A stretch of DNA of 64,000 nucleotides from Methylobacter sp. Its GTDB lineage: Bacteria; Pseudomonadota; Gammaproteobacteria; Methylococcales; Methylomonadaceae. Where the stretch lies: positions 1 through 64,000 of the forward strand of contig NZ_JAUXVR010000045.1 of assembly GCF_030680395.1 (NCBI RefSeq), written 5' to 3'. Of this stretch, positions 1,228 through 12,806 are shown piece by piece; within the stretch, counting starts at the first letter, position 1, and every line of letters starts with the position of its first letter. Position numbers and translations under genes: made by a program. The notes below the pieces were generated by a model that searched no databases, was not told the origin of the DNA, and saw nothing but the letters and a program-made list of their open reading frames with translations.

Positions 1228-1682
1228 ACAATTAAGGCATAATAAAAAATTATTGAGGTCAATGACGGCCGGCGCAAAAAGGTTTTAGTTCGGCATTAAG
1301 TTTTATTTATTGCTGAGTCATTGATTTTAAATAACTTCTTAGGTAATACTCGGCTTCTCCAACTCAATTGGGTTTAAATTCAGCAAATTGCTTAATATCA
1401 AATTCACCTAAACGGGTACTGCGGCGAATCAATGTGTTATAGAAAAAAAGCCGCAACTTCAAGTTATTGTTTAAAGGATATATTTAAAAGTCAAATGAAT
1501 AGCTCTGACTTGCAGAGACTACTCAACTGATGCCGACATTTTCTTTCGTGCTGAAAATAGCTTCATGGAGTAAATATTTGTCTTCTCAGCAAGTAGAGCA
1601 GATTATTGACGACCATGCTGAAGTTATGCAATGCCTTGATCATTTGAATGACCAAGGGTCAACTTTGTATAGGAGTATTGCT
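1228..1682. other. Intergenic region with no recognised gene
   Basis: AT-rich sequence between the IS6 scar and the PqqD-like gene. The frame of the PqqD-like protein is open back to 1530, but that upstream part has no family similarity I recognise and the better ribosome site is at 1671. I see no RNA gene here. Confidence 0.5.
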
Positions 1683-1967
1683 GTGGAAACTATCAATTTG
1701 ACTGATTCAATTATGCAGCGTTCTGATCTGCTAGCTAGTCAACTTAACAACGATTTAATTATTTTACACCACGAAACCGGCAAGTACCTGCATGCCGGGC
1801 CAGTTGGTAATCGTATTTGGAAACTCATTGAGCAGCCCATTACGTTAACTGAATTACATCGCGAATTGCTTGAAATTTATAACGTAGATACCGAAACTTG
1901 TCGCATTGAACTGCTGGAATTTGTTCAACAATTACTTGAGGAACAATTAATTATACATTCACGGTAA
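1683..1967 (+). CDS. PqqD-family peptide chaperone / RiPP recognition element
   Basis: This 94-residue protein has the PqqD fold pattern. A run of strands (SDLLASQLNNDLIILHHETG) leads to the conserved turn YLHAGPVGNRIWKLIEQP, then helices (TLTELHRELLEIYNVD, CRIELLEFVQQLLEEQLI). PqqD-like proteins bind leader peptides of ribosomally made natural products. They are the B1 part of lasso systems and also occur with HprK-related kinases near polysaccharide genes. I chose the GTG at 1683 because AGGAG lies 7 bases upstream at 1671-1675; an ATG at 1530 would add 51 residues without family similarity. It sits between two IS6 scars and may act on the candidate precursor at 8513-8698. Confidence 0.75.
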   Translation: METINLTDSIMQRSDLLASQLNNDLIILHHETGKYLHAGPVGNRIWKLIEQPITLTELHRELLEIYNVDTETCRIELLEFVQQLLEEQLIIHSR

Positions 1968-1980
1968 CTACTCAGCCGCG

Positions 1981-2131
1981 GGTCCTGCCTCAAAGCTTAC
2001 CGGCCTGAGCTAAAATCGCGCATTTTCCAAGTGCACGATGATAAATTTTAAAGGCGTTCGTTTTCCAAAAGACGTCATTCTCTACCCGCAGATAGGCGTC
2101 ATCCGCAATCTGTTAAACTTACGACAGAACC
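1981..2131 (+). mobile_element. IS6-family mini-element remnant (copy B)
   Basis: About 150 bp. The left end (GGTCCTGCCTCAAAGCTTACC) and following bases align with the outer part of copy A. From ATG 2038 it encodes MINFKGVRFPKDVIL, the IS6 transposase N-terminus, then jumps by deletion to a right end, TTAAACTTACGACAGAACC at 2113-2131. The ~20 bp before that end resemble copies C and D. Flanking 8-mers do not match, so I cannot show a target duplication. Confidence 0.75.
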
Positions 2132-2291
2132 GGGTTTTCAGTAGGATCTGCCAACAACGCGTCCTGATAGAATTGCGCTACCGTCGGATTCAGCGATTCA
2201 TACACGAACATGATTTAACCAATGTTTAACACCTTTCCTGTGCTTTGTCGCCACAATAAAATAACCTATTGATTTTATGGTGCTTTAATTA

Positions 2292-2516
2292 ATGAAACAC
2301 TTAACGTTAATTATTAAAAAAGTTTTAAAGTTAATTCTTAATAGATTTCGCTCTTTTATTGCCAACAATACAAGGTTAGCCAAAGAAAGAATTAAGATTT
2401 GCAAGGCTTGCCCGAAACAAGTTGATGGTTGGTGCAGCAAAAAACGAGGGGGATGCGGATGTTTAATCTCAGCCAAGACTAAGATATCCAGTAAATGCCC
2501 TGATAATCGTTGGTAA
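2292..2516 (+). CDS. Small Cys-rich zinc-ribbon-like protein
   Basis: A 74-residue protein with a basic, hydrophobic N-terminal helix followed by KICKACPKQ, WCSKKRGGCGC, then KISSKCPDNRW. The spacing CxxC, CxnCxC, C is what a zinc-binding ribbon would show. Similar short CP/CGC/CP-W proteins are common in phages and accessory regions. I do not recognise a specific function. It lies between IS6 scars B and D. The overlapping minus-strand frame is far less protein-like. Confidence 0.6.
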   Translation: MKHLTLIIKKVLKLILNRFRSFIANNTRLAKERIKICKACPKQVDGWCSKKRGGCGCLISAKTKISSKCPDNRW

Positions 2517-2544
2517 ACTGTTATGTATATGCGCTTGCTCTGGA

Positions 2545-2620
2545 TAATATCCCTTGTCCTTCATAAAGTTTAACCGACTGTAGATAACGCCTATCCCGGC
2601 TTGGATTGCTATGCTTGTAT
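2545..2620. mobile_element. Degenerate IS6-family end (copy D)
   Basis: The stretch AAAGTTTAACCGACTGTAGA at 2564-2583 and the bases after it match the inside of copy C (AAAGTTTAACCGAATGTAGA, minus strand) and of copy B (inverted). The outer terminal bases are eroded (TTGTCCTTCAT instead of TTCTGTCGC). No transposase frame remains. The rest of the 2517-2699 gap shows nothing I recognise. Confidence 0.5.
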
Positions 2621-2699
2621 TATCTGGATCACCTGCCCATGCCGCAAAAAAATGGCGGTTGCATATCGCCATATGCACCAGCCTAAGCGTGTTTAGAAT

Positions 2700-3677
2700 A
2701 TGACTACCTTTCAATGTGAATTGGGAAGGGAGACAAACTTTAGCCGAAAAGTACCGGCCGGCGCGCGTTTCGACTTAGCGCTGAACTTCGATATTCCTGT
2801 ATTCGATAATCCGCTGCCCTATGTACCTGAGTTAGACCCCGACTATTTTTTCGATGCCGAAACGACTACGGCATTGTTGATTGGTTTTGCACGCAACCGG
2901 CGCGTGTTGTTGCATGGATTGCATGGCGTAGGCAAATCGACCCATATTGAGCAGATAGCAGCCCGCCTGGGCTGGCCTTGTTTACGCCTGAACCTGGACA
3001 GTCAAATTTCCCGCATGGATTTGATTGGCAAGGACAGCATTCGGCTGAGTGAGGGGCTACAAATTACGGAGTTCCAGGACGGTGTGCTGCCTTGGGCGCT
3101 ACAACGGCCGGTAGCGCTGATTTTGGATGAATATGATGCGGCTCGGCCTGATGTTTTGTTTGTTTTTCAACGGGTATTGGAGAACAACGGCAAACTCGTG
3201 TTGCCCGATCGCGCGAGGGTGATTCAGCCTCATTCCTGTTTTCGTTTGTTTGCGACAGCGAACACGCTGGGGATGGGCGATGCAACCGGCATCTATCATG
3301 GCACTCAGCCTTTGAATCAAGGGCAATTAGATCGCTGGAACCTGGTAGCGGAGCTGCGTTACTTAAAACCTGAGCGCGAGGTGGAATTGGTGCTGGCAAA
3401 GATGCCGGAATTAGCGGCAGTCGAGGGCCGCGCCTTGGTTGAAGCGATGGTGGTATTTGCGGGGCTGACGCGCGAGGGCTTTCAATTAGGCGATGTCGCG
3501 ACCATATTGTCGCCGCGTGGCGTGATTGGTTGGGCGGAGAATTGGTTGATTCTGAGTGATCTTATTTCTTCGTTTCGGCTGAGTTTTCTCAACCGTTGTG
3601 ATCCTGCTGAACGGCCGATTTTTGCAGAATACTTTCAACGTGCCTTTGGAGTTGAGTTGCCCGGACTTCGGATCTGA
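2700..3677 (+). CDS. cobS: CobS-like AAA+ ATPase (MoxR class)
   Basis: This 325-residue protein matches aerobic cobaltochelatase subunit CobS over its whole length. The N-terminal part ends in VPELDPDYFFD, then Walker A GLHGVGKST, the region RLNLDSQISRMDLIGKDSI, Walker B ALILDEYDAARPD, sensor 1 FATANTLGMGD and the C-terminal YFQRAFGVELPG. CobS works with CobT as the ATP-driven motor that lets CobN insert cobalt into hydrogenobyrinate diamide. No cobN or other cobalamin gene is in the window. The genes next door look like RiPP modification genes, so the substrate here is not certain. cobT follows after 3 bp, so the two are surely co-transcribed. Confidence 0.8.
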   Translation: MTTFQCELGRETNFSRKVPAGARFDLALNFDIPVFDNPLPYVPELDPDYFFDAETTTALLIGFARNRRVLLHGLHGVGKSTHIEQIAARLGWPCLRLNLDSQISRMDLIGKDSIRLSEGLQITEFQDGVLPWALQRPVALILDEYDAARPDVLFVFQRVLENNGKLVLPDRARVIQPHSCFRLFATANTLGMGDATGIYHGTQPLNQGQLDRWNLVAELRYLKPEREVELVLAKMPELAAVEGRALVEAMVVFAGLTREGFQLGDVATILSPRGVIGWAENWLILSDLISSFRLSFLNRCDPAERPIFAEYFQRAFGVELPGLRI

Positions 3678-3680
3678 CCG

Positions 3681-5525
3681 ATGCGCAAGCCGAGTGCCCT
3701 TGAAGCGGGATTGGATTGGCAAGCGGCTAATATGGCGGCCGGACGGGCGATGAGTGGAGCGGCGGCCGCTAAGGAAGAAAATTGGCAAGCGGGCGAGGAC
3801 GGGCTTATCCATGCCGTTGACGCCGCAATGGCTGTCTGGGAACAACGTTGGCCCGTTGAACACGGACTAGCGCTTTTGCCCCATGAAATGGACGAGCATT
3901 CCAGAATGCGTGGGCGAATTGATGCGCGGATGGCCTTGCTGCGCTTTCACGATCCATCTCGCCATCGTGTCTTGTTGGCTGCATCAGATGCAAGCGAATG
4001 CGAGTTGCTTGAACTGTTCGAGCCTTTGCGTTGCCAGCGGCTGGCGATGTCGCTGGCTGCAGGCGTGACGATCAACTTGCTTGGACTCTGGGCCGAACTG
4101 TTGGGACAAACAGCAACGGAGCGGCGGGCAAACTTAGCAAAGTTTATGTTGGCCATGCTTTCGCCGTCTCAGTGCGAAAGTCTCATTCTGCACACTTGCG
4201 CCGGCCTTGATAGCGCTTGTCTATTACCGGCTAAAGAGCTCTCCCCCTTAGCGGCAGCAGTGAACGATCAAGGCCGCTTTGCCGAACTTTTGATAGAGCT
4301 TGCGCGTACGTGCGCCGGTAGTTTGCTGTTCACATCAGCAGGCACCATCCGTGCAGTGAAAGAAAAGCCCGAGGCGGAATTTGCAGCCGATTTTCCTTCA
4401 GAACAAACCGAGTCTCAAGCCCGCATCATCCAGCCGAACATCACGCCCGGCACGGAATCCTGTCAAGATGAAGATAAGGCTGAACACAGCGATAGCGATA
4501 CTTACAAACAGGACTCCTCTGGCGCTTCCCATCTTGAGTTGCAACGCGGAGCTGCGCTAGCGAAAGCCCTATCCTATTCAGAGGACTATCGCGTGTTCTG
4601 GAGTGGCGGCGACCGCATTCTTCGTCCGGAAAAGCTGGTTGCGCCACAGCGGATGGAAACGCTTTGGCGCGAGTTTGGCAAGCCCCCCCAGCCCGATAAT
4701 ACTGCCCGTTATGCGGCCAAGCTGAGACGCTATCTGCTTGGACTCAACCTTCACAGTATTGAACCTGAGCAGGAAGACGGCTGGCCAGACCCCAACGCGT
4801 TGTTCCGACTGATCACAAGCCCAGGTTTTGATCGAGTCTTCCAGCGTGAAAGCGAATCAGTCCATCCCCGCATCGCCTTTAGCATCTTGCTGGATTGTTC
4901 CGGCTCAATGAAAGGCAAACCGATGCACATTGCCGCCCATTGCACCGACGGGTTAATTCGAGTCCTCGAACGGGCAAATCTGACAGTGGAGCTTTTGGGC
5001 TTTACAACAGGGTCGCGCGGAGAAGGTCCGGCTTTAATGCGCTGGCAGCAGGCGGAGTCGCCGCCACAAGCCGGCAGACTCAATGAAACAGTGCATTTGT
5101 TATTCAAAAGCGAACATGAACCTTGGCGTCGTGCGCGCCATCGACTGGGCGCGCTTTTTGAACCGTCATGGCTCAAGGAAAATCTCGATGGCGAGGCGCT
5201 GGCCTGGGCGGCTTCACGGTTGTTATTGCGATCCGAACCGCGCAAAATTTTGCTCGTCATCTCCGACGGTGCGCCACTTGATCGCAATACGGCCCAAAAC
5301 CATTCGGATGGCTATCTTGAAGCCCATCTTCACAATGTCATTGCCAACATCGCTAAAACCCCGATTGAACTGGCAGCGATCGGCTTAAACTATAATATCC
5401 ACCGCTATTACCCCAATGCCGTACGTTTAAGTCGACTTGATGAACTTGGCCTTGTGTTATTTGAGTGGGTAGAGAGATTGATAAGAAAAAAAGCTCAAGC
5501 CCCCGGAAATCGCACCTTGCGTTAA
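3681..5525 (+). CDS. cobT: CobT-like VWA-domain partner of CobS
   Basis: A 614-residue protein close in length to known CobT. The middle is acidic and low-complexity (around DEDKAEHSDSDTYKQDSSG), as in CobT. The C-terminal third is a von Willebrand A domain with an intact metal site: DCSGSMKG (DxSxS) near residue 411, and ISDGAPLD further on. It ends in YPNAVRLSRLDELGLVLFEW, a CobT-like tail. It should assemble with the upstream AAA+ protein into a chelatase-type complex. Transcription continues toward the kinase gene 110 bp downstream. Without CobN nearby, a role in cobalt insertion is family-based inference. Confidence 0.75.
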   Translation: MRKPSALEAGLDWQAANMAAGRAMSGAAAAKEENWQAGEDGLIHAVDAAMAVWEQRWPVEHGLALLPHEMDEHSRMRGRIDARMALLRFHDPSRHRVLLAASDASECELLELFEPLRCQRLAMSLAAGVTINLLGLWAELLGQTATERRANLAKFMLAMLSPSQCESLILHTCAGLDSACLLPAKELSPLAAAVNDQGRFAELLIELARTCAGSLLFTSAGTIRAVKEKPEAEFAADFPSEQTESQARIIQPNITPGTESCQDEDKAEHSDSDTYKQDSSGASHLELQRGAALAKALSYSEDYRVFWSGGDRILRPEKLVAPQRMETLWREFGKPPQPDNTARYAAKLRRYLLGLNLHSIEPEQEDGWPDPNALFRLITSPGFDRVFQRESESVHPRIAFSILLDCSGSMKGKPMHIAAHCTDGLIRVLERANLTVELLGFTTGSRGEGPALMRWQQAESPPQAGRLNETVHLLFKSEHEPWRRARHRLGALFEPSWLKENLDGEALAWAASRLLLRSEPRKILLVISDGAPLDRNTAQNHSDGYLEAHLHNVIANIAKTPIELAAIGLNYNIHRYYPNAVRLSRLDELGLVLFEWVERLIRKKAQAPGNRTLR

Positions 5526-5571
5526 GCATTATTATAGATTTTTTGCCGTTTTTGCGGAGGACTAAGGGATA

Positions 5572-5643
5572 ATGCCGAGCTTTATCTGCGTTTATTTTTT
5601 CTGCACGAAACGACCGAGAGCGAGAATGCGCCCAATTGCTTAG
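5572..5643 (+). other. 23-codon mini-ORF overlapping the kinase start
   Basis: An ATG at 5572, preceded by GGAGG and AAGGG, opens a 23-codon frame that closes with TAG at 5641-5643. This overlaps the TTG start of the kinase at 5636. The peptide has no recognisable motif. It may couple translation of the kinase, or it may be chance. Confidence 0.3.
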
Positions 5644-6541
5644 CCTATATAATTTATTCAATTTTACGATTGCCTCTGAAATCGCTTTTCCCTGTGCGGC
5701 AACAAGTACAAGAAATCCGGATGTCTGGATTCGTTTTCAACGTTTCGACTACAACCCTTCCCTGGTCGGCGAGCGGGGTGGTCAGGGTTTGTGGGGGCGA
5801 GCCACGGCCGACACTTTTGACCTGAGGGCCAACGGCATTGCGCGATACCAGGTGCGCAACGGCTGCGAGATCCTCATCGATCCTTTCGCAGGCGCGGACG
5901 AACAAGCTATTCGCGGCCCCTTGATGGTAATCGTTTTAGCTGCGCTTTTGCAGCAGCGCGGATTTCTTGTGTTGCATGGCGGCGTGGTTGATTTCGAAGG
6001 TCAGGGCATGGCGCTATTGGGAGATTCAGGGATGGGCAAATCCAGCCTTGTTTCGTTCTTGCAACGTCAGGGTGTCGCCGCATTTTCTGACGAACTCTGC
6101 GTCGTTCATCCCGACGAACTGGGCCGGATGTGTGTCTGGCCCGTGTCTCAAGTTATAGCACTTTGCGAGGATGCCGTTTTGCGTCAAGGCATAGATCGGC
6201 ATAATGCTCAACCTACACTGGATAAGTTCCGGATTTTTGCTGATCATTATGCTGAAAAACCAATCCCGTTGACCCGACTGACCGCATTGCGTAAATCTCC
6301 AGCCGGCTTATATTGGCAAATGCCTAAAGATAATGAAAAGCTGGCCATGCTACTGAGAAATACTTATCTTCGGAGTTTTCTAAACGATATAGGGCCTGAA
6401 AAAAGGATGCATCATCTACAACACTGCCTTGCCCTAATTCGGCAAGCAGAATTCCGCATTGTTTACCGGCCCTTCGAACCGGTAGATGAAGCGGATTTTA
6501 TCCAGCAGATCAAGCTAAGCTTTGAAGGAGCTTCGCAATGA
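5636..6541 (+). CDS. HprK-like kinase of lasso/RiPP type (first copy)
   Basis: A 301-residue protein resembling the C-terminal P-loop domain of HPr kinase/phosphorylase, in the form found in lasso-peptide and PqqD/HprK-related clusters. FTIASEIAFP at the N-terminus is shared with the second copy at 9561-10463. Walker A GDSGMGKSS is at residues 129-137 and FSDELCVV follows about 20 residues later. In the paeninodin family such kinases phosphorylate the C-terminal serine of the precursor. The TTG start at 5636 gives the same short lead-in to FTIASEIA as the paralogue has, and no in-frame ATG exists upstream. Its stop overlaps the cyclase start by 4 bp (ATGA), a sign of coupled translation. Confidence 0.75.
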   Translation: MLSLYNLFNFTIASEIAFPCAATSTRNPDVWIRFQRFDYNPSLVGERGGQGLWGRATADTFDLRANGIARYQVRNGCEILIDPFAGADEQAIRGPLMVIVLAALLQQRGFLVLHGGVVDFEGQGMALLGDSGMGKSSLVSFLQRQGVAAFSDELCVVHPDELGRMCVWPVSQVIALCEDAVLRQGIDRHNAQPTLDKFRIFADHYAEKPIPLTRLTALRKSPAGLYWQMPKDNEKLAMLLRNTYLRSFLNDIGPEKRMHHLQHCLALIRQAEFRIVYRPFEPVDEADFIQQIKLSFEGASQ

Positions 6542-8466
6542 GTACTTTTGGGGCGTTGCTCTATTTCGATGGTCGGCCTGTTGCTCGCACCGATATTGAA
6601 CGTATGTCGCAGGCACTGATTGTATCCAGAAAATATGAGCCGCGCATTAAGCTGAACGGGGCTTTTGCCATGGCCCACCAACTCAATCCCTTTACACCCG
6701 AAGATTTATTCGAACGCCAGCCTTACACCGATCCGAGTGGACGTTATTGGCTGCTTGCAGACGCTCGACTGGACAACCGCGATGAATTGCTGAAGGAGTT
6801 TGGAATCGCCGCCGCTACAGCTTCATCGGTAGCCGACGGTAGCTTGGTGATGGAAGCGTTTTGCCGGTGGGGCCATGATTCACCTCAAAAACTCCAGGGC
6901 GATTTTGCTTTCCTGGTATGGGATTGCTTGGAAAAGAGCCTGTTTTGCGCCTGCGACCCGATGGGTTCGCGGACCTTGCTGTTTTACTGGAAACCGCCAT
7001 TTTTAGCGGTGTCTACGCTATTGAGGGGATTGCACGCCTTGCCGCAGATACCTAGAACCGCAGACCGGACTGCGCTGATTGATTATTTGGCATTACGCCC
7101 ACTGGCTATTGGTCATACTTTATTTGAAGGTATTGAAAGGGTTCCGGCCGGCTATACTTTTTTTGCCACTGCCGGGCGACGCCAGCTTAAACGCTACTGG
7201 TTTTTGGAGGGCAGAAAGGAGATCCGCCTTCCCAATGATGAGGCTTATCGCGAAGCCTTTATGGAACTGTTCACCAAGGCCGTGCATTCCAGACTGCGTG
7301 CGATTGGGCCGGTGGGCATATCGATGAGCGGCGGCCTGGATTCCGCTTCGGTGGGTGCGCTTGCGGCAACTGAGCTGGCTAAGAAGAACCAAAAACTTAC
7401 CGCTTTCACGCTGGTTCACCGGCGAAGTTTCGATCCGAATATTCGCACGGAACGGATCGATCCGGAATATGCATTTGTCGAGGCGATGAAAGCCAGGTAT
7501 GCGAATCTTGAGGCGGTTTATCTGACGGGAAAGGATCAGCGCTTGCTGGATGAACTGGACGCCGATTTTGAAGCGGCCGGCATAATGCCCCACAGCGTGC
7601 TTTTTCAACGTCGGCATCGTACGCTTTTTCCGGAAGTTCAGTCTCGCGGAATTCGCGTTTTACTGAACGGCTATAACGGCAACGCCACCCTGTCTTACTC
7701 CGGCCTCGATTCTATTTTCCCTTTGTTTGTCAAAGGCCGTTGGCTGAGCGCTTTTGAAGGCATTCGAGCGCTACAGCCGCTTCATCGAAACTCATTCAGA
7801 CAGCTGTTCTTTAGACTGTTGCTCAGCCCTTTTTATCCGCAGACGCTTGACTTACTGATCAATGCTTTCTTTCCTGACAAACGGGCCCATGTTCGCCAAA
7901 CCTACGGGATAAAACCGGAATATTACTACGGCGCTAAGAGCCCGGCTTTCAAGGATGCCTTGGGCTACTTTAAAAATATTACCATGCGCATGAATCCAAA
8001 TTTTGCACGGGAGCGCATGTTCATTGACGGTATTCAGAACAATGTGGCCGACTTATGGCCTGCGACGCGAGCTTCCTGGCAAATCGATGAGCGGGACCCT
8101 GCCTCAGACCAAAGATTGGTCGAGTTTTGCTTGTCCATACCGATGGAACAGTTTTTGCGCAAGGGGGCAAATCGATTCTTATTGCGCAATGCGATGAAAC
8201 CGTACCTGCCTGAACAGATCCTCAACCGCGCATCCTTTGGGCTGCGCGAACCTGATTTAGTTGAGCGCGTTGACGAGGTCAGGGAAGGCATGCACTTGAG
8301 GTTTCAACGCATCAAAGCGGCGAATCGTCTGGATTTTCTGGATTATGAGCAGCTGCAGACCATGCTTGATGCGCCGGCCAAACAAGGTTGCGACGCGGCG
8401 CGATATGCCATGAGGGCGATTACGATGGGTGAGTTTGCAGCATGGCTGGCGGGCTCTAATGACTGA
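6538..8466 (+). CDS. Asparagine-synthetase-like cyclase (lasso cyclase type)
   Basis: A 642-residue protein with an N-terminal Ntn-hydrolase-like glutaminase half (KLQGDFAFLVWD, DPMGSRTLLFYW) and a C-terminal ATP-pyrophosphatase half with SGGLDS at residues 264-269. The usual Cys-2 nucleophile of a true glutaminase is missing: the protein begins MSTFG, so it should not take ammonia from glutamine. This is the state seen in lasso-peptide cyclases, which adenylate a side-chain carboxylate and close an isopeptide ring. The length is normal. It overlaps the upstream kinase by 4 bp and faces the candidate precursor 46 bp away. Asparagine synthesis is less likely given the missing Cys and the neighbours. 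Confidence 0.75.
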   Translation: MSTFGALLYFDGRPVARTDIERMSQALIVSRKYEPRIKLNGAFAMAHQLNPFTPEDLFERQPYTDPSGRYWLLADARLDNRDELLKEFGIAAATASSVADGSLVMEAFCRWGHDSPQKLQGDFAFLVWDCLEKSLFCACDPMGSRTLLFYWKPPFLAVSTLLRGLHALPQIPRTADRTALIDYLALRPLAIGHTLFEGIERVPAGYTFFATAGRRQLKRYWFLEGRKEIRLPNDEAYREAFMELFTKAVHSRLRAIGPVGISMSGGLDSASVGALAATELAKKNQKLTAFTLVHRRSFDPNIRTERIDPEYAFVEAMKARYANLEAVYLTGKDQRLLDELDADFEAAGIMPHSVLFQRRHRTLFPEVQSRGIRVLLNGYNGNATLSYSGLDSIFPLFVKGRWLSAFEGIRALQPLHRNSFRQLFFRLLLSPFYPQTLDLLINAFFPDKRAHVRQTYGIKPEYYYGAKSPAFKDALGYFKNITMRMNPNFARERMFIDGIQNNVADLWPATRASWQIDERDPASDQRLVEFCLSIPMEQFLRKGANRFLLRNAMKPYLPEQILNRASFGLREPDLVERVDEVREGMHLRFQRIKAANRLDFLDYEQLQTMLDAPAKQGCDAARYAMRAITMGEFAAWLAGSND

Positions 8467-8512
8467 AATCGTTTCGCGGGTATGGTCTTAATAACAAAAT
8501 ACGGCTCAAAAA

Positions 8513-8698
8513 CTAGCAGGTTCCGCAGTCTTCCGGCCCAAAGCTGGATTGTTTGGTACAGGGGCTATCTACCGTTCCGCAAGCAGGGGTGTTTTTAGTG
8601 GCCTCAGATATGAAAACAGCTTCAAGCTTGGGTGTTTGCCACGTAGCTTTATTTTCAGCATCCATTTTCAGTTCCGGAGAAATTGTAGAAGTTGTCAT
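8513..8698 (-). CDS. Candidate RiPP precursor peptide, Cys-rich core
   Basis: A 61-residue peptide starting MTTSTISPELKMD. Residues 20-34 (W20, P23, L25, T34) resemble the lasso leader motif Y/W-xx-P-x-L...T. If T34 is the penultimate leader residue, the core would start at N36. It would then have D44 as ninth residue (a possible ring acceptor) and four cysteines at 40, 47, 58 and 61 (ending DCGTC). Asn as first core residue would be unusual for a lasso peptide, and the C-terminus is Cys rather than the Ser used in paeninodin-type phosphorylation. It lies 26 bp after the sulfotransferase, last in the kinase-sulfotransferase-peptide operon. Function is inferred from size, motif and context. 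Confidence 0.6.
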   Translation of the reverse strand: MTTSTISPELKMDAENKATWQTPKLEAVFISEATKNTPACGTVDSPCTKQSSFGPEDCGTC

Positions 8699-8724
8699 TG
8701 AAAGTTACCTAATTTTTCAGAGGG

Positions 8725-9564
8725 TTACAGATAGCCGAACTGCGCCATGATCTGTCCATGATTCGCGATGATGCTCGCCACTTGCGAGCGCGAGAGCATA
8801 GCGTACCCCATTCCGTTTTGTCCAGATCTAAAAAATTTTTTAGATCTGGACGGTTTTTCCTTAAACGAGTTTAGAGACTCCTGTTTTTGGAGCTCTTCAA
8901 ACGAAGAATTCTTTATGGCTTGACGGATCTCAAGCTCACTCTTGTTTACCCCCAAATGCGCCGCTACTCGGGAGAAAGCCTCATAGGGATTGTTTTTCAT
9001 GTCTTCATAGCGCAAAAACAACACAGGAAATCCCTCGACTGAGAGCCAGCTTTCGACGTTTAGACTCCAACTGAGAATTTTTTGGCGGGCCTGCCAAAAT
9101 GGCTGGTCTGTGTCGGAACAAAGACAACTCGCCGCGTCCGCCATCTCGGCAATGATGCGGTCGTAATCGGAATAACCTCGGTGATGGGCATAGGAAATGC
9201 AAACGTCCAGGGGATTACGAATCAGGTAAATGGCCGCTTTAGTCGCTTCATCCGGAAAAAACGCTTCTCCGCTGCCGGTAAAACTGTAAGCGCAGTGGGT
9301 TTTGAAGTACTTGACGTTTTCCCATTGCGAATCGATATACGTATATATTTCCGGCCTTAGTCTATCGATCTCGTCATGGCTCAACAACGAAACATCCCAA
9401 CCGCACTCATGATCAAAAAGATCCAGCGAACAACTCATAAAACTTGAGCGAAGATTATTGATGTCACAGGGCTCGTCTGTTGCGAAAAATAAATTTTCAA
9501 GGAATATCCGCAGCCATGTATTTCCTGATTTTGGATAGGAAGCCAGCCAAACGATGGATTTCAT
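8725..9564 (-). CDS. PAPS-dependent sulfotransferase
   Basis: A 279-residue soluble sulfotransferase. The 5'-phosphosulfate loop is YPKSGNTW at residues 10-17. The 3'-phosphate motif RNPLDVCISYAHHRG begins near 116. YEDMKNNP and the late motif FFRSGQNGMGY (compare FRKG.VGDW) are also present. It should transfer sulfate from PAPS to a hydroxyl or amine, here perhaps of the neighbouring peptide. I chose ATG 9564 because MKSIVWLASYPKSGNTW is the natural N-terminus; the frame is open 70 codons further but that part is shadow of the kinase. It overlaps the kinase stop by 4 bp (ATGA). Confidence 0.8.
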   Translation of the reverse strand: MKSIVWLASYPKSGNTWLRIFLENLFFATDEPCDINNLRSSFMSCSLDLFDHECGWDVSLLSHDEIDRLRPEIYTYIDSQWENVKYFKTHCAYSFTGSGEAFFPDEATKAAIYLIRNPLDVCISYAHHRGYSDYDRIIAEMADAASCLCSDTDQPFWQARQKILSWSLNVESWLSVEGFPVLFLRYEDMKNNPYEAFSRVAAHLGVNKSELEIRQAIKNSSFEELQKQESLNSFKEKPSRSKKFFRSGQNGMGYAMLSRSQVASIIANHGQIMAQFGYL

Positions 9565-10463
9565 AGCGCCAGGTTCGTTCTGACAAAATGGAAAAAAGCA
9601 TCCTCGGACGTTACCGTTAAATGCCTTTGCGCAATATAAAAACGTGATTGCTGAATTAATGCCGTGGATTGTAAAAAGTGCGCATCTTTTAATGCCATGC
9701 CAATCAGAAAACGGTGCCGATAGGTATTTCCGAGTACAAGGGTTATAGCCTCTTTCACATCGACAGTCTTCCATAATAAGTCCCCGTGATAATCTTTCAG
9801 TTCAACCACCTGGGTCAAGGGAACCGGAGATAAGCTCTTGGCGTGGGTGGGAACAAGGTATTTTCTTATACTTGGGCGTATCGGGCGCAGCTTTGTTACA
9901 TCGCCCCCTTGTTGAATGAGGGTATTTTCCCAAAGTGATAGGGCTGGCAGAACGGGCCATGCCATCATGCGCCCGGAACTGTCTTGTTTAATAGCACAAA
10001 GCTCATCGGAAAAAAGTGACGCCCCGATGCGCTGAAATGCTGCTGCGAGTGTTGATTTACCGGCTCTTGAACAACCCACCAGTGCGATCCCTTCACCATC
10101 TACATTGAATACGCCGCCATTTAGCACCAGAAAGCGGCGTTGCAGTAACAGCACTCCCAAGACCGATGACTGTAAAAAGGCGACAATCGAATCTTCATCC
10201 GCGTGCGGAAAGGGTTCAATCCATATTTCCTTGCCGCCACGTATTAAATAACGAGCTACTCCGTCGACGCAAATCAAAAGCTCGTTTGGCTTGGCATGGA
10301 AGCGGAATCCGCGTTCGCCGCCTTCACCTAAATCTGTTGGCAGATTTCGATAGCGAATTTCGACTTCAGGCTCCCTCGATGCAGGAAAACTAACTGGCCA
10401 AGCGATTTCTGAAGCGATGGTGAAGTCGCAACAATCAAAATAGTGCATTGAGGACATGGGCAT
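9561..10463 (-). CDS. HprK-like kinase (second copy)
   Basis: About 300 residues and clearly paralogous to the kinase at 5636-6541. Shared features are FTIASEIAWPV near the N-terminus, FLVLNGGV before Walker A GCSRAGKST, FSDELCAI, LGNTYRHRFL and a C-terminal QSRFYIAQR. Identity between the copies looks modest, so they probably diverged to separate substrates. Starts possible at ATG 10463, 10457 and 10448 (and TTG 10466); none has a strong ribosome site. It is first in a leftward operon with the sulfotransferase and the peptide. Activity as a peptide kinase is inferred from the family. Confidence 0.72.
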   Translation of the reverse strand: MPMSSMHYFDCCDFTIASEIAWPVSFPASREPEVEIRYRNLPTDLGEGGERGFRFHAKPNELLICVDGVARYLIRGGKEIWIEPFPHADEDSIVAFLQSSVLGVLLLQRRFLVLNGGVFNVDGEGIALVGCSRAGKSTLAAAFQRIGASLFSDELCAIKQDSSGRMMAWPVLPALSLWENTLIQQGGDVTKLRPIRPSIRKYLVPTHAKSLSPVPLTQVVELKDYHGDLLWKTVDVKEAITLVLGNTYRHRFLIGMALKDAHFLQSTALIQQSRFYIAQRHLTVTSEDAFFHFVRTNLAL

Positions 10464-10691
10464 CAATCTAATAGAATGTTAACTCAAATTTCGGAGTTCA
10501 TTTTTAAACAAAAACAGCAACTTCTCATTACCTTAAATAATATTATAAATCAATAGCCTTCACCGATAAAAAGCGCATATCAATGAATCTCCATGTCGCT
10601 AACTCATTGAAAAATAATTTACCTGTGCCTAATGAGAAGTTAGGAAGCCATCTCAACAAAACCGATCAAGCCTGCCAACATCAGCAGAAAA

Positions 10692-10805
10692 TTAACAGCC
10701 GCCAATATCCGGCATAGTTTGCACAGCTGGGAACCCATTAGCGTTGGTAGCTTGCTTGAAGAAGGCTGTAGCAGCGTCTTCATCACTAGGTCCGGAAACT
10801 ATGAA
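10692..10805 (-). pseudogene. Open fragment without start codon, ending GGC
   Basis: After a TGA at 10806-10808 the minus frame runs VSGPSDEDAATAFFKQATN, then 14 more residues ending MPDIGGC and TAA. It has no ATG, GTG or TTG, and its 5' side abuts the IS6 end at 10797-10880. It could be the tail of a gene cut by the element, or chance. I do not recognise the family. Confidence 0.3.
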
Positions 10806-10880
10806 TCAATGGCGTCTCCAGATTTATCGCCAGCCCTCATGACGCCCTATCTACATTCGGTTAAACTTTGCGACAGAACC
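10797..10880 (+). mobile_element. IS6-family right-end scar (copy C)
   Basis: TTAAACTTTGCGACAGAACC at 10861-10880 is a terminal repeat of the same type as copies A and B. About 20-40 bp inside it match copies B and D. No transposase remains. It forms part of the apparent upstream extension of the oxygenase frame, which is why the oxygenase start was moved downstream. Confidence 0.6.
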
Positions 10881-10901
10881 CTCAAAAATCCGAATATATC
10901 C

Positions 10902-11543
10902 ATGACTCTCAAAGAACCAATCAATGCGTTTGACCGTACCCCTCCTTACTGCATCGTACACAATTTTCTGGGGGGCGATTTGATCGAGCGTTTGCTGACG
11001 CATGCGAAAACACACGAGAGCGAATTTACTTCGGCAAAAGTCAGCGATCATCAATTACATACGGAAATGCGTGTTTCACGTGTATTACGGAATTTAGGCG
11101 AGTTGAGCACGGAAATAGATGCGAAGTTCAAAGCGGTAATATCACAGGCCATTCTTGATCTCGGCTTATTTCCTTTCGAACTGGCTCGCTGTGAAATTGA
11201 GCTGGTGGCGCATGAAGACGGTGCTTTCTTCAAGCGCCATATTGATACGAAAACCGGCATGCATGATCAAAAATCCCAGCGGGTAATGACCGGAGTGCTT
11301 TATTTTTACTCAGCTCCTAAAGGTTTTAGTGGCGGACAGCTTAGATTGTATCCTTTATCTCCTTCGGCAGTGAGTTTCGTCGATATAGAACCGGAGTGCG
11401 ATCGACTTGTTTTGTTTCCGGCTTGGGTTCCCCATGAGGTTATGCCAATATCTTGCCCATCCGGTTCATTCGGACAATCCCGTTTTGCCATAAATTGTTG
11501 GTATCGGCGTCCAATCCTCACCGTATCGTCTGTTGATGGCTAA
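10902..11543 (+). CDS. 2-oxoglutarate/Fe(II) oxygenase, prolyl-4-hydroxylase type
   Basis: A 213-residue protein with the double-stranded beta-helix metal site. H113 and D115 lie in KRHIDTKTG, H178 in WVPHEV, and the 2OG-binding Arg194 in GQSRFAINCWY. TGVLYFY and GGQLRLYPL are typical of P4Hc-type enzymes. It would hydroxylate a protein or small-molecule substrate. Given its neighbours, peptide tailoring is plausible, but these enzymes also occur near polysaccharide genes. The frame is open from 10719, but its first 61 codons lie over the IS6 scar, so I prefer ATG 10902. The enzyme may thus run from a new promoter. The 10464-10691 gap shows nothing recognisable. Confidence 0.75.
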   Translation: MTLKEPINAFDRTPPYCIVHNFLGGDLIERLLTHAKTHESEFTSAKVSDHQLHTEMRVSRVLRNLGELSTEIDAKFKAVISQAILDLGLFPFELARCEIELVAHEDGAFFKRHIDTKTGMHDQKSQRVMTGVLYFYSAPKGFSGGQLRLYPLSPSAVSFVDIEPECDRLVLFPAWVPHEVMPISCPSGSFGQSRFAINCWYRRPILTVSSVDG

Positions 11544-11573
11544 AGGGTATGCTCACTGCGAATTTAAGGCCTA

Positions 11574-12806
11574 TTATTGACCGGCATTCCCCGTTTTTAG
11601 CTTGCGCACTTGCCGGATTTGGACTTGCCGTATGCTCCATAATACCGGGCGTAGCGGAAAATAGAGCAGTTGCAGCCAGGATGGGAGTTTGAGCAGTCGA
11701 TAGTCGTCGACATTCGGGTAAAACATCATGGCACAATACCACCCTAGGACTTTTATTTTACGGGCGGTTAGAATACGGTTTATCCATTGCTGCAATTTTA
11801 ATCGAACGGGGAGATGTTCCATCCACTGTTCAGGACCTTGCTGAAGGGTGTAAATACTCTGCCATTGGGATAGATTGATGCTGTACATGAACCCGCGTTT
11901 AATCTCCCGACTCAGGTCTATGCGGCAATATTTTTGAGCCAGTAACAGCCCCTGCTGTAGCGCCAGCCCTGCACCGAGTTGGTGAGCGCGTTGCCACAAC
12001 TTCGGCCAGTCCAAGTCGTGCGTAGCCAATATATTGGGCAGATCGAAAAGCCATTTCAAGCGCCCCCATCCATGCTTGGCGCCGTGCAGACACAGGTAAA
12101 TCATCAGGTCTTCATTAGCTAAACCGGGAATGCCTATATTTGACTTTTTCGAGACCGACAAAGCTGGCCAATCATCCATCGGGAATTCAAATGGGTTATG
12201 GGTGGCCCGCCAATGCAACTCCATATGCGGAAATCCTTTCCTGATCAAGAGACAGTGGTTTTGGTTTCGGAGCAAAATATTTCTAGTTTCAGTAAACAAA
12301 ATTTCAGGTTCATCAATATTCCATCCTAGCTCCTTCAGTTTCGTTAGGGCTGCATCGAGTTGTTCGGGATTAACCAGGATATCTATATCGCCTATACCAC
12401 GAGCGGCCAGATCGCCATAAGCCCGTGCAGCAACATCGAGCCCTTTCATTACAAGCAAATTCAGGCCCGGACCGGCAAGCATCAATTCATGTATTGCCAG
12501 CAAGGCTTGTGATGCACGCTGTATATTGCGTTTGTGCCTCATGGCCAGCTTGTCCAGCAACTCGTTCGGAAATGTGCCGACCGGATGACTGCGTAAATTG
12601 CAGTACAGCAACGATGAAACATCGTGTCTGTATGCATACGCCAGGACTTTACCGCTATCCAGTTCGGTAGCGGCCAACTGCTGCTGACGCAAATAATGCG
12701 CCTCGGTGGGCTTGGGACGGCAGCAGGTCAGTACCAGTTCGAATTCCGGGCCTTCCTCAACCGGGTTTAGCGGGCATTCAAGGAGACGATGGCATTTTCT
12801 TGTCAT
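11574..12806 (-). CDS. Nucleotidyltransferase family protein (NTP_transf_5 type)
   Basis: A 410-residue protein with the minimal nucleotidyltransferase signature: GLDVAARAYGDLAARGIGDI followed by DILV. The two Asp residues of IGDIDILV are the likely metal ligands. ELHWRATHNPF and a helical region with YLCLHGAKHGWGRLKWLFDL follow. This uncharacterised family is often found in lasso and PqqD/HprK clusters as well as polysaccharide loci; the nucleotide and acceptor are unknown. It converges with the oxygenase (30 bp between stops). Its upstream side borders the IS982 remnant. The family call is firm; a role in the RiPP locus is inference. Confidence 0.75.
   Translation of the reverse strand: MTRKCHRLLECPLNPVEEGPEFELVLTCCRPKPTEAHYLRQQQLAATELDSGKVLAYAYRHDVSSLLYCNLRSHPVGTFPNELLDKLAMRHKRNIQRASQALLAIHELMLAGPGLNLLVMKGLDVAARAYGDLAARGIGDIDILVNPEQLDAALTKLKELGWNIDEPEILFTETRNILLRNQNHCLLIRKGFPHMELHWRATHNPFEFPMDDWPALSVSKKSNIGIPGLANEDLMIYLCLHGAKHGWGRLKWLFDLPNILATHDLDWPKLWQRAHQLGAGLALQQGLLLAQKYCRIDLSREIKRGFMYSINLSQWQSIYTLQQGPEQWMEHLPVRLKLQQWINRILTARKIKVLGWYCAMMFYPNVDDYRLLKLPSWLQLLYFPLRPVLWSIRQVQIRQVRKLKTGNAGQ

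Follow-up and report, generated by a model that had tools for sequence, protein, structure and literature searches.

A predicted lasso-type peptide module with an overlapping kinase-sulfotransferase gene pair in Methylobacter, and its relatives across bacterial phyla

What does a bacterium make with a gene set that surrounds an asparagine-synthetase-like cyclase with two HprK-like kinases, a sulfotransferase, and an oxygenase? Such a set spans 1.5 to 12.8 kb of the stretch analysed here (the window: 64 kb from the start of contig C13, in a Methylobacter sp. genome of 4.36 Mb), which comes from a methane-eating bacterium. An earlier reading made from the sequence alone had seen in these genes a lasso-like pathway for a ribosomally synthesized and post-translationally modified peptide (RiPP), and our analysis upholds it in the form of a paeninodin-type module with kinase, sulfotransferase, and 2-oxoglutarate (2OG) oxygenase genes. 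This genome probably has two lasso-type macrolactam RiPP modules, of which the locus is one, and they would share a B2 protease and an exporter in trans; the product and its sulfation are predictions. We call the module lasso-type because its gene content, the tree set of its cyclase, a B2 gene in the genome, and the enrichment of a precursor rule support it.

The cyclase begins with MSTFG, so that the glutaminase Cys2 is absent, and keeps the SGGLDS motif. In a tree of 66 rows (85 matches reduced to 62 by coverage and identity, one removed, and five added) it falls into a set of 23 rows with support of 100/99, which also includes two plasmid cyclases, one from Priestia with a paeninodin-family annotation and one from Paenibacillus, where the plasmid is unannotated and has a similar precursor. 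Five AsnB-like rows are set apart by a single branch (support 100/100). Grouping with true asparagine synthetases, which the sequence-only reading had named as part of what would refute its idea, is thus not what the tree gives, and from the missing Cys2 and the tree position we reject a true asparagine synthetase (AsnB). In these features the gene set agrees with the lasso type, with a glutaminase-dead cyclase predicted to form an isopeptide bond. The second cyclase of the genome, on contig C12, is placed in a different part of the tree, so the window module is not a recent copy of the module on C12.

The window precursor has a paeninodin-type leader (WxxPxL) with a Thr 14 residues past the Trp. 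In seven precursors from this genome and its relatives the W and P hold fixed positions, and the spacing from Trp to Thr is 14 in six and 13 in the seventh. From this spacing, the core is read as NTPACGTVDSPCTKQSSFGPEDCGTC, starting with Asn1, carrying Asp9, and ending in Cys, with four Cys in all. The Thr at -2, the acid at ring position 9, and the WxxP leader make it a predicted precursor of the paeninodin type; the Priestia paeninodin-family precursor has a like leader frame, a Trp-to-Thr spacing of 13, and a C-terminal Ser. The precursors of the window (8513-8698) and of contig C12 (locus L014, 6679-6879) have a common core stretch, KNT(P)ACG..D. The C12 core ends in Ser, and Asn could be the first residue of its ring, which would put Cys in place of Thr at -2.

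Across the sulfotransferase loci described below, we chose 47 W-type precursor candidates by leader rule and position, some of which look false (e.g., L038 and L077) and were retained. An acid occupies core position 8 or 9 in 32 of them (shuffle mean 8.3, maximum 19 in 5000 runs), and 35 end in Ser (mean 7.3, maximum 18 in 5000 runs). Control frames with the same leader pattern have the acid in 8/39 and the C-terminal Ser in 6/39 (Fisher p about 1e-5 and 3e-8), a contrast that is weakened because some controls look real (e.g., L016, L029, L039, and L041) and were retained as controls. The first core residue is variable (G 11, S 10, T 6, A 4, N 3, M 3, and others), and the rule that emerges is WxxP, Thr, an acid at 8 or 9, a C-terminal Ser, and a variable residue 1.

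The sulfotransferase has a YPKSGNTW loop, H90, R116, and S124, all of which are invariant or nearly so among 45 relatives, and its structural model has a mean pLDDT of 94. Its family and the residues of the 5'-phosphosulfate-binding loop and the 3'-phosphate-binding site identify it as a 3'-phosphoadenosine 5'-phosphosulfate (PAPS) sulfotransferase, with activity predicted from these features. Searching the PDB with the profile placed Teg12 and Teg14 first, with StaL lower, among animal and plant sulfotransferases. Teg12 and Teg14 are glycopeptide-antibiotic enzymes, and all three are bacterial enzymes that act on peptide antibiotics; although they are among the closest solved relatives by profile, their substrates are non-ribosomal glycopeptides, unlike the peptide proposed here.

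Scanning a species-genome collection with the sulfotransferase alignment gave at least 596 stretches, of which 595 were confirmed; the best 80 were kept and thus represent the nearest relatives only, and most are metagenome bins whose taxon labels may err. Counts over the 80 loci are 70 for HprK, 60 for PqqD, 53 for the cyclase, 49 for B2, 43 for NTP_transf_5, 26 for an exporter, 9 for Collar proteins, and 3 for the 2OG enzyme type; relatives of the latter lie within the clusters of the related genomes G104 and G114. HprK lies directly upstream of a sulfotransferase on the same strand in 69/80, and the gap between them, with starts estimated by motif, is at most 17 bases in 64 of these 69, often an overlap. 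HprK is often absent from the lower-similarity loci that close the list, and 27/80 have no cyclase in the fetched stretch, some being cut at contig ends. Among these nearest relatives, the overlapping kinase-sulfotransferase pair is a hallmark of a subfamily present in many phyla.

Cyclase, HprK, and PqqD occur together in 46 of the 80 loci, 27 of which also have a W-type candidate. The full set of kinase, sulfotransferase, PqqD, and cyclase recurs across about a dozen groups at phylum level, among them Rhodothermota, Verrucomicrobiota, Chloroflexota, Pseudomonadota, Thermodesulfobacteriota, Bacillota, Acidobacteriota, Bacteroidota, Actinomycetota, Cyanobacteriota, Armatimonadota, and Riflebacteria. 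The co-occurrence of kinase, cyclase, sulfotransferase, and peptide families that the sequence-only reading had proposed as a check is therefore seen in many loci, with WxxP precursors as the peptides, and what was a one-line remark in earlier surveys becomes a testable subfamily, an overlapping kinase-sulfotransferase pair beside lasso-type cyclases. Direct chemistry may be possible with Tistrella mobilis, whose pTM1 carries the pair with two unannotated candidate precursors ending in Ser (L158, 6403-7168), and with Thalassobaculum sp. OXR-137, where a plasmid combines the pair with annotated PqqD, cyclase, B2, and exporter and one W-type candidate.

The Pfam HprK model scores the two window kinases, A and B, at 18.7 and 15.6 bits, both under the cut-off of 33.3. 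A family profile built from 37 relatives retrieves HPr kinase/phosphatase structures as its top PDB hits, in agreement with the label HprK-like given to them earlier. The AlphaFold model of kinase A has a mean pLDDT of 92.5; its Walker A motif is GDSGMGKS, and it has SDEL where a DD motif is commoner. TDE or ADE variants occur in four kinases of other loci, and among the five SDE entries are copies of the window kinases. In a tree of 94 of 102 matches plus three added sequences, the nearest row to kinase B is kinase A (37% identical). Because they are mutually nearest, the two look like products of an old local duplication, one now tied to the cyclase and the other to the sulfotransferase.

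The sequence-only reading had found no protease or exporter and concluded that the system was incomplete or a new protease-free variant. The observation holds for the window but not for the genome, and the conclusion is not borne out: the only B2 match of the genome lies on contig C12 (Transglut_core3, 78.6 bits), for which reason we reject a protease-free variant, and the best match in the genome to the exporter of the G104 cluster lies at 32-34 kb of the same contig (38% identical). Within 15 kb or less, C12 also encodes three Collar proteins, a precursor, an HprK-like kinase, a sulfotransferase, PqqD, a cyclase, and a sugar-transfer ATP-grasp protein in addition to the B2, and the contig has an NTP_transf_5 relative whose start resembles that of the window protein. 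B2 is present in 7/8 cluster genomes examined, the eighth (G152) being incomplete, and G104 and G114 each have at least two modules on one contig. A single B2 and a single exporter thus seem to serve both modules of the Methylobacter genome. Broken second copies of B2 were observed in G104 (L017, 4007-4867, one stop) and G114 (L018, 11941-12162, shortened), both of which have intact copies elsewhere.

Position 1 of the window is base 1 of contig C13, a contig end, and a wzc-like gene lies at 1-1029. Contig C28 begins with the same wzc sequence (L137, 1-966; both are wzc-like N-termini), so this repeat probably broke the assembly at the ends of C13 and C28. Comparison of the first 400 bases of C12 and C13 found no common 20-base word, and the gene order of G027, compared by eye, favours C12-C28; joining C12 to the window via contig ends, and hence adjacency of the two clusters, is therefore unsupported.

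PqqD exceeds its Pfam cut-off and constitutes a discrete PqqD-like RiPP recognition element (RRE), although it scores 72 bits against the NCBIfam model lasso_PqqD_Bac, whose cut-off is 80. The 5' end of its frame (about 1554-1679), upstream of an internal ATG at 1713, carries in frame about 40 codons of a sulfotransferase C-terminus (sulfotransferase HMM, 25.9 bits; short-BLAST to sulfotransferase C-termini, E about 1e-4), as would be left by a cut through a sulfotransferase-PqqD unit lying upstream.

In the proposed pathway, PqqD would bind the WxxPxL leader, as its family suggests, and the HprK-like kinases and the sulfotransferase would modify side chains of the linear precursor, which the 2OG enzyme may hydroxylate. 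The single B2, encoded with the C12 module, would cut after the Lys that follows the conserved Thr; the cyclase would activate Asp9 and join it to the amine of Asn1, closing a predicted Asn1-Asp9 ring; and the C12 exporter would move the product out.

Like the paeninodin type, in whose leaders the Trp is nearly invariant (PMC13381572), the module has a WxxP leader, a Thr 13-14 residues past the Trp, split B1/B2, a cyclase of the same set, an HprK-like kinase, and NTP_transf_5; it is unlike that type in the overlapping sulfotransferase, the two kinases, the 2OG enzyme, the Cys-ending core, the CobS/CobT-like pair, and a B2 and exporter on another contig. Pseudomycoidin, a phosphoglycosylated lasso peptide, likewise involves a kinase and a nucleotidyltransferase family protein (PMC8498205), to which the window adds a sulfotransferase and a 2OG enzyme. 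Metanodin, the first reported lasso peptide with Asn at position 1 (PMC12670498), has an Asn ring residue 1 with Thr at -2, as predicted for the window product; the word kinase is absent from that paper as far as its accessible text goes.

Sulfotransferase genes have been noted in lasso clusters before. Some Firmicutes clusters have one at their start, according to a review that also describes phosphorylation of a C-terminal Ser by the kinase (PMC8498205), and a 2014 survey records some anaerobe clusters with both an HPr kinase and a sulfotransferase in or by the cluster (PMC4289311). After these two papers, of 2014 and 2021, the gene combination is thus not new. What looks new, as far as our literature search goes, is the overlap of the pair, its distribution over about a dozen groups, and the precursor rule; the accessible text of the two papers describes no pairing, spread, or precursor rule. 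Among the papers found, none states the function of the sulfotransferase in such clusters. Our literature search found no sulfated lasso peptide, and in the part of a 2026 review that could be consulted (PMC13352647) "sulf" occurs in three places, none on a sulfated lasso peptide. If a sulfated product were confirmed here, it could be the first sulfated lasso-type peptide.

Several observations weigh against a functional lasso-type module. The window core ends in Cys and not in the Ser of most candidates, which is the residue phosphorylated by known lasso kinases, and this leaves the substrate of the kinases here uncertain; both of them also have SDEL, and DD is found in about 80 of 98 entries. 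Counted from its Thr, the C12 core has no acid at position 8 or 9, nor does the Thalassobaculum candidate, the Azospirillum TSH100 candidate ends in Gly, and 19/46 full loci have no W-type candidate. The action of B2 in trans is our inference. The cyclase branch is long (1.5), and the cyclase (323 of 525 bits) and PqqD both fall under their NCBIfam cut-offs; together with the sulfotransferase relic upstream, this means that the module may be decaying. Whether it is a decaying duplicate cluster that makes nothing, its remnant genes kept for now, has to be weighed on these points, since the relic, the long branch, the atypical C-terminal Cys, the lack of a B2 and exporter of its own, and the wzc repeat at the contig start would all fit. 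We consider this unlikely, because the remaining frames are open and still carry the Walker A, SGGLDS, and sulfotransferase motifs, the overlapping gene starts are kept, and the divergent tree positions of the two cyclases argue against a recent copy.

Improbable, too, in our estimate, is a non-threaded or uncyclised LPP-like phosphopeptide pathway, in which kinase and RRE form the working core and the cyclase has another role. According to the accessible text on LPP clusters (PMC13381572), these combine a discrete RRE with an HprK-like kinase and an NTP transferase, as does the window, and only about one third of the peptidases are linked to canonical lasso enzymes; the 27 sulfotransferase loci with no cyclase in the fetched stretch would also suit such a pathway. 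However, LPP is described with an SpI-like peptidase and a YxxP leader, whereas we find a B2 (no search was aimed at SpI itself), a WxxP leader, a cyclase in the window, and strong enrichment of an acid at position 8 or 9. An ordinary asparagine synthetase accompanied by unrelated kinases in a polysaccharide locus would have the fold family common with AsnB and the wzc-like gene in its favour, but we regard it as most improbable given the absent Cys2, the separate tree position, and the presence of PqqD with a WxxP peptide. The lasso-type module remains our preferred reading.

All genes named in the sequence-only reading are present at about the positions it had given (Table 1). The genes for kinase B, the sulfotransferase, and the peptide face those for kinase A and the cyclase, and the precursor gene starts 26 bases past the sulfotransferase stop codon.

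Table 1. Features of the predicted lasso-type module in the window
Feature	Position	Strand	Detail
PqqD/RRE (B1-like) frame	1530..1967	+	PqqD domain residues 76-141; Pfam PqqD 59.3 bits
Small Cys-rich DUF6171-like protein	2292..2516	+	Pfam DUF6171 23.4 bits, below cut-off 27
CobS-like AAA+ ATPase	2700..3677	+	TIGR01650 423 bits, cut-off 558.55
CobT-like VWA protein	3681..5525	+	Pfam CobT_C 173.9 bits
HprK-like kinase A	5636..6541	+	4-base overlap with cyclase start
Lasso C: glutaminase-dead asparagine-synthetase-like macrolactam cyclase (predicted)	6538..8466	+	NF033535 323 bits, cut-off 525
61-aa precursor peptide (predicted)	8513..8698	-	leader W-QTP-KL, Thr at +14
PAPS sulfotransferase (predicted), 279 aa	8725..9564	-	Pfam Sulfotransfer_1 88.4 bits; start chosen by motif
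HprK-like kinase B	9561..10466	-	4-base overlap with sulfotransferase start
2OG-Fe(II) oxygenase (P4H-like)	10719..11543	+	Pfam 2OG-FeII_Oxy_3 60.3 bits
NTP_transf_5 nucleotidyltransferase family protein	11574..12806	-	Pfam 165.9 bits

The same interval holds a CobS/CobT-like AAA+/VWA pair (2700-5525) that the sequence-only reading had left out of its list. CobS-like proteins were found at E<=1e-60 in only 2/237 genomes of the family, those of this Methylobacter and G114, in both cases inside or beside a lasso-type cluster; in G114 the pair (L144, 10878-13569) adjoins the intact B2 gene. CobN was found at the same threshold in 54/237, so that this CobS is lacking in most relatives that have CobN. 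The Methylobacter CobN, on contig C4, could be a partner of its CobS/CobT-like pair; in G114, which has the pair, CobN was not found. A role of the pair in the RiPP cluster is a guess. It is not a usual cluster part, having no match in the best 80 loci, and is thus a local feature; a defence role of CobS was also considered and set aside, as IetA matches were weak (best 24.9 bits).

The sequence-only reading had further suggested a tie to the cell surface, for which there is indirect support from the sister cluster: beside the C12 kinase (L014, 4987-6718) lie three Collar-domain genes of tail-collar/tail fibre type, the only ones in the genome at E<=1e-6. This context concerns the C12 cluster and not the window itself. 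Such clusters are known from eight genomes of the family, and 7/8 have Collar genes at the cluster (G119 has two, where a contig ends, and the incomplete G152 has none), or 5/6 in an unbiased count, as G027 and G034 had been found via their Collar genes. Two Azospirillum plasmids carry lasso genes together with a Collar triplet. Most triplets have no lasso genes: 3/20 fetched Collar loci of the family had them (some stretches being short), as did 1/8 plasmid loci opened from a Collar query. Proteins of about 1,000-2,700 residues stand directly beside the triplet in five of nine listed family loci, very large surface-type proteins are frequent at the other plasmid Collar loci opened, and similar triplets elsewhere occur with GNAT genes. 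The triplet looks like an independent module, joined either to giant surface-type proteins or to RiPP clusters of this type. Polysaccharide genes showed no general association: only 8/58 loci with HprK and PqqD had them, by models built from few seeds, so such a link is unsupported. As a speculation that we rate as rather improbable, the pair might make macrolactam peptides that are doubly anionic (phosphate and sulfate) and decorate the cell surface instead of acting as free antibiotics, with the CobS/CobT-like motor of the window and G114 as an added, cluster-specific maturation machine.

Near the Collar triplet on C12, Pfam also identifies an Asp/Asn hydroxylase and a Sulfotransfer_3 protein encoded side by side (L014, 3015-4737). 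By eye, two look-alike neighbours are found at L113 (11179-12941), where they occur without lasso genes.

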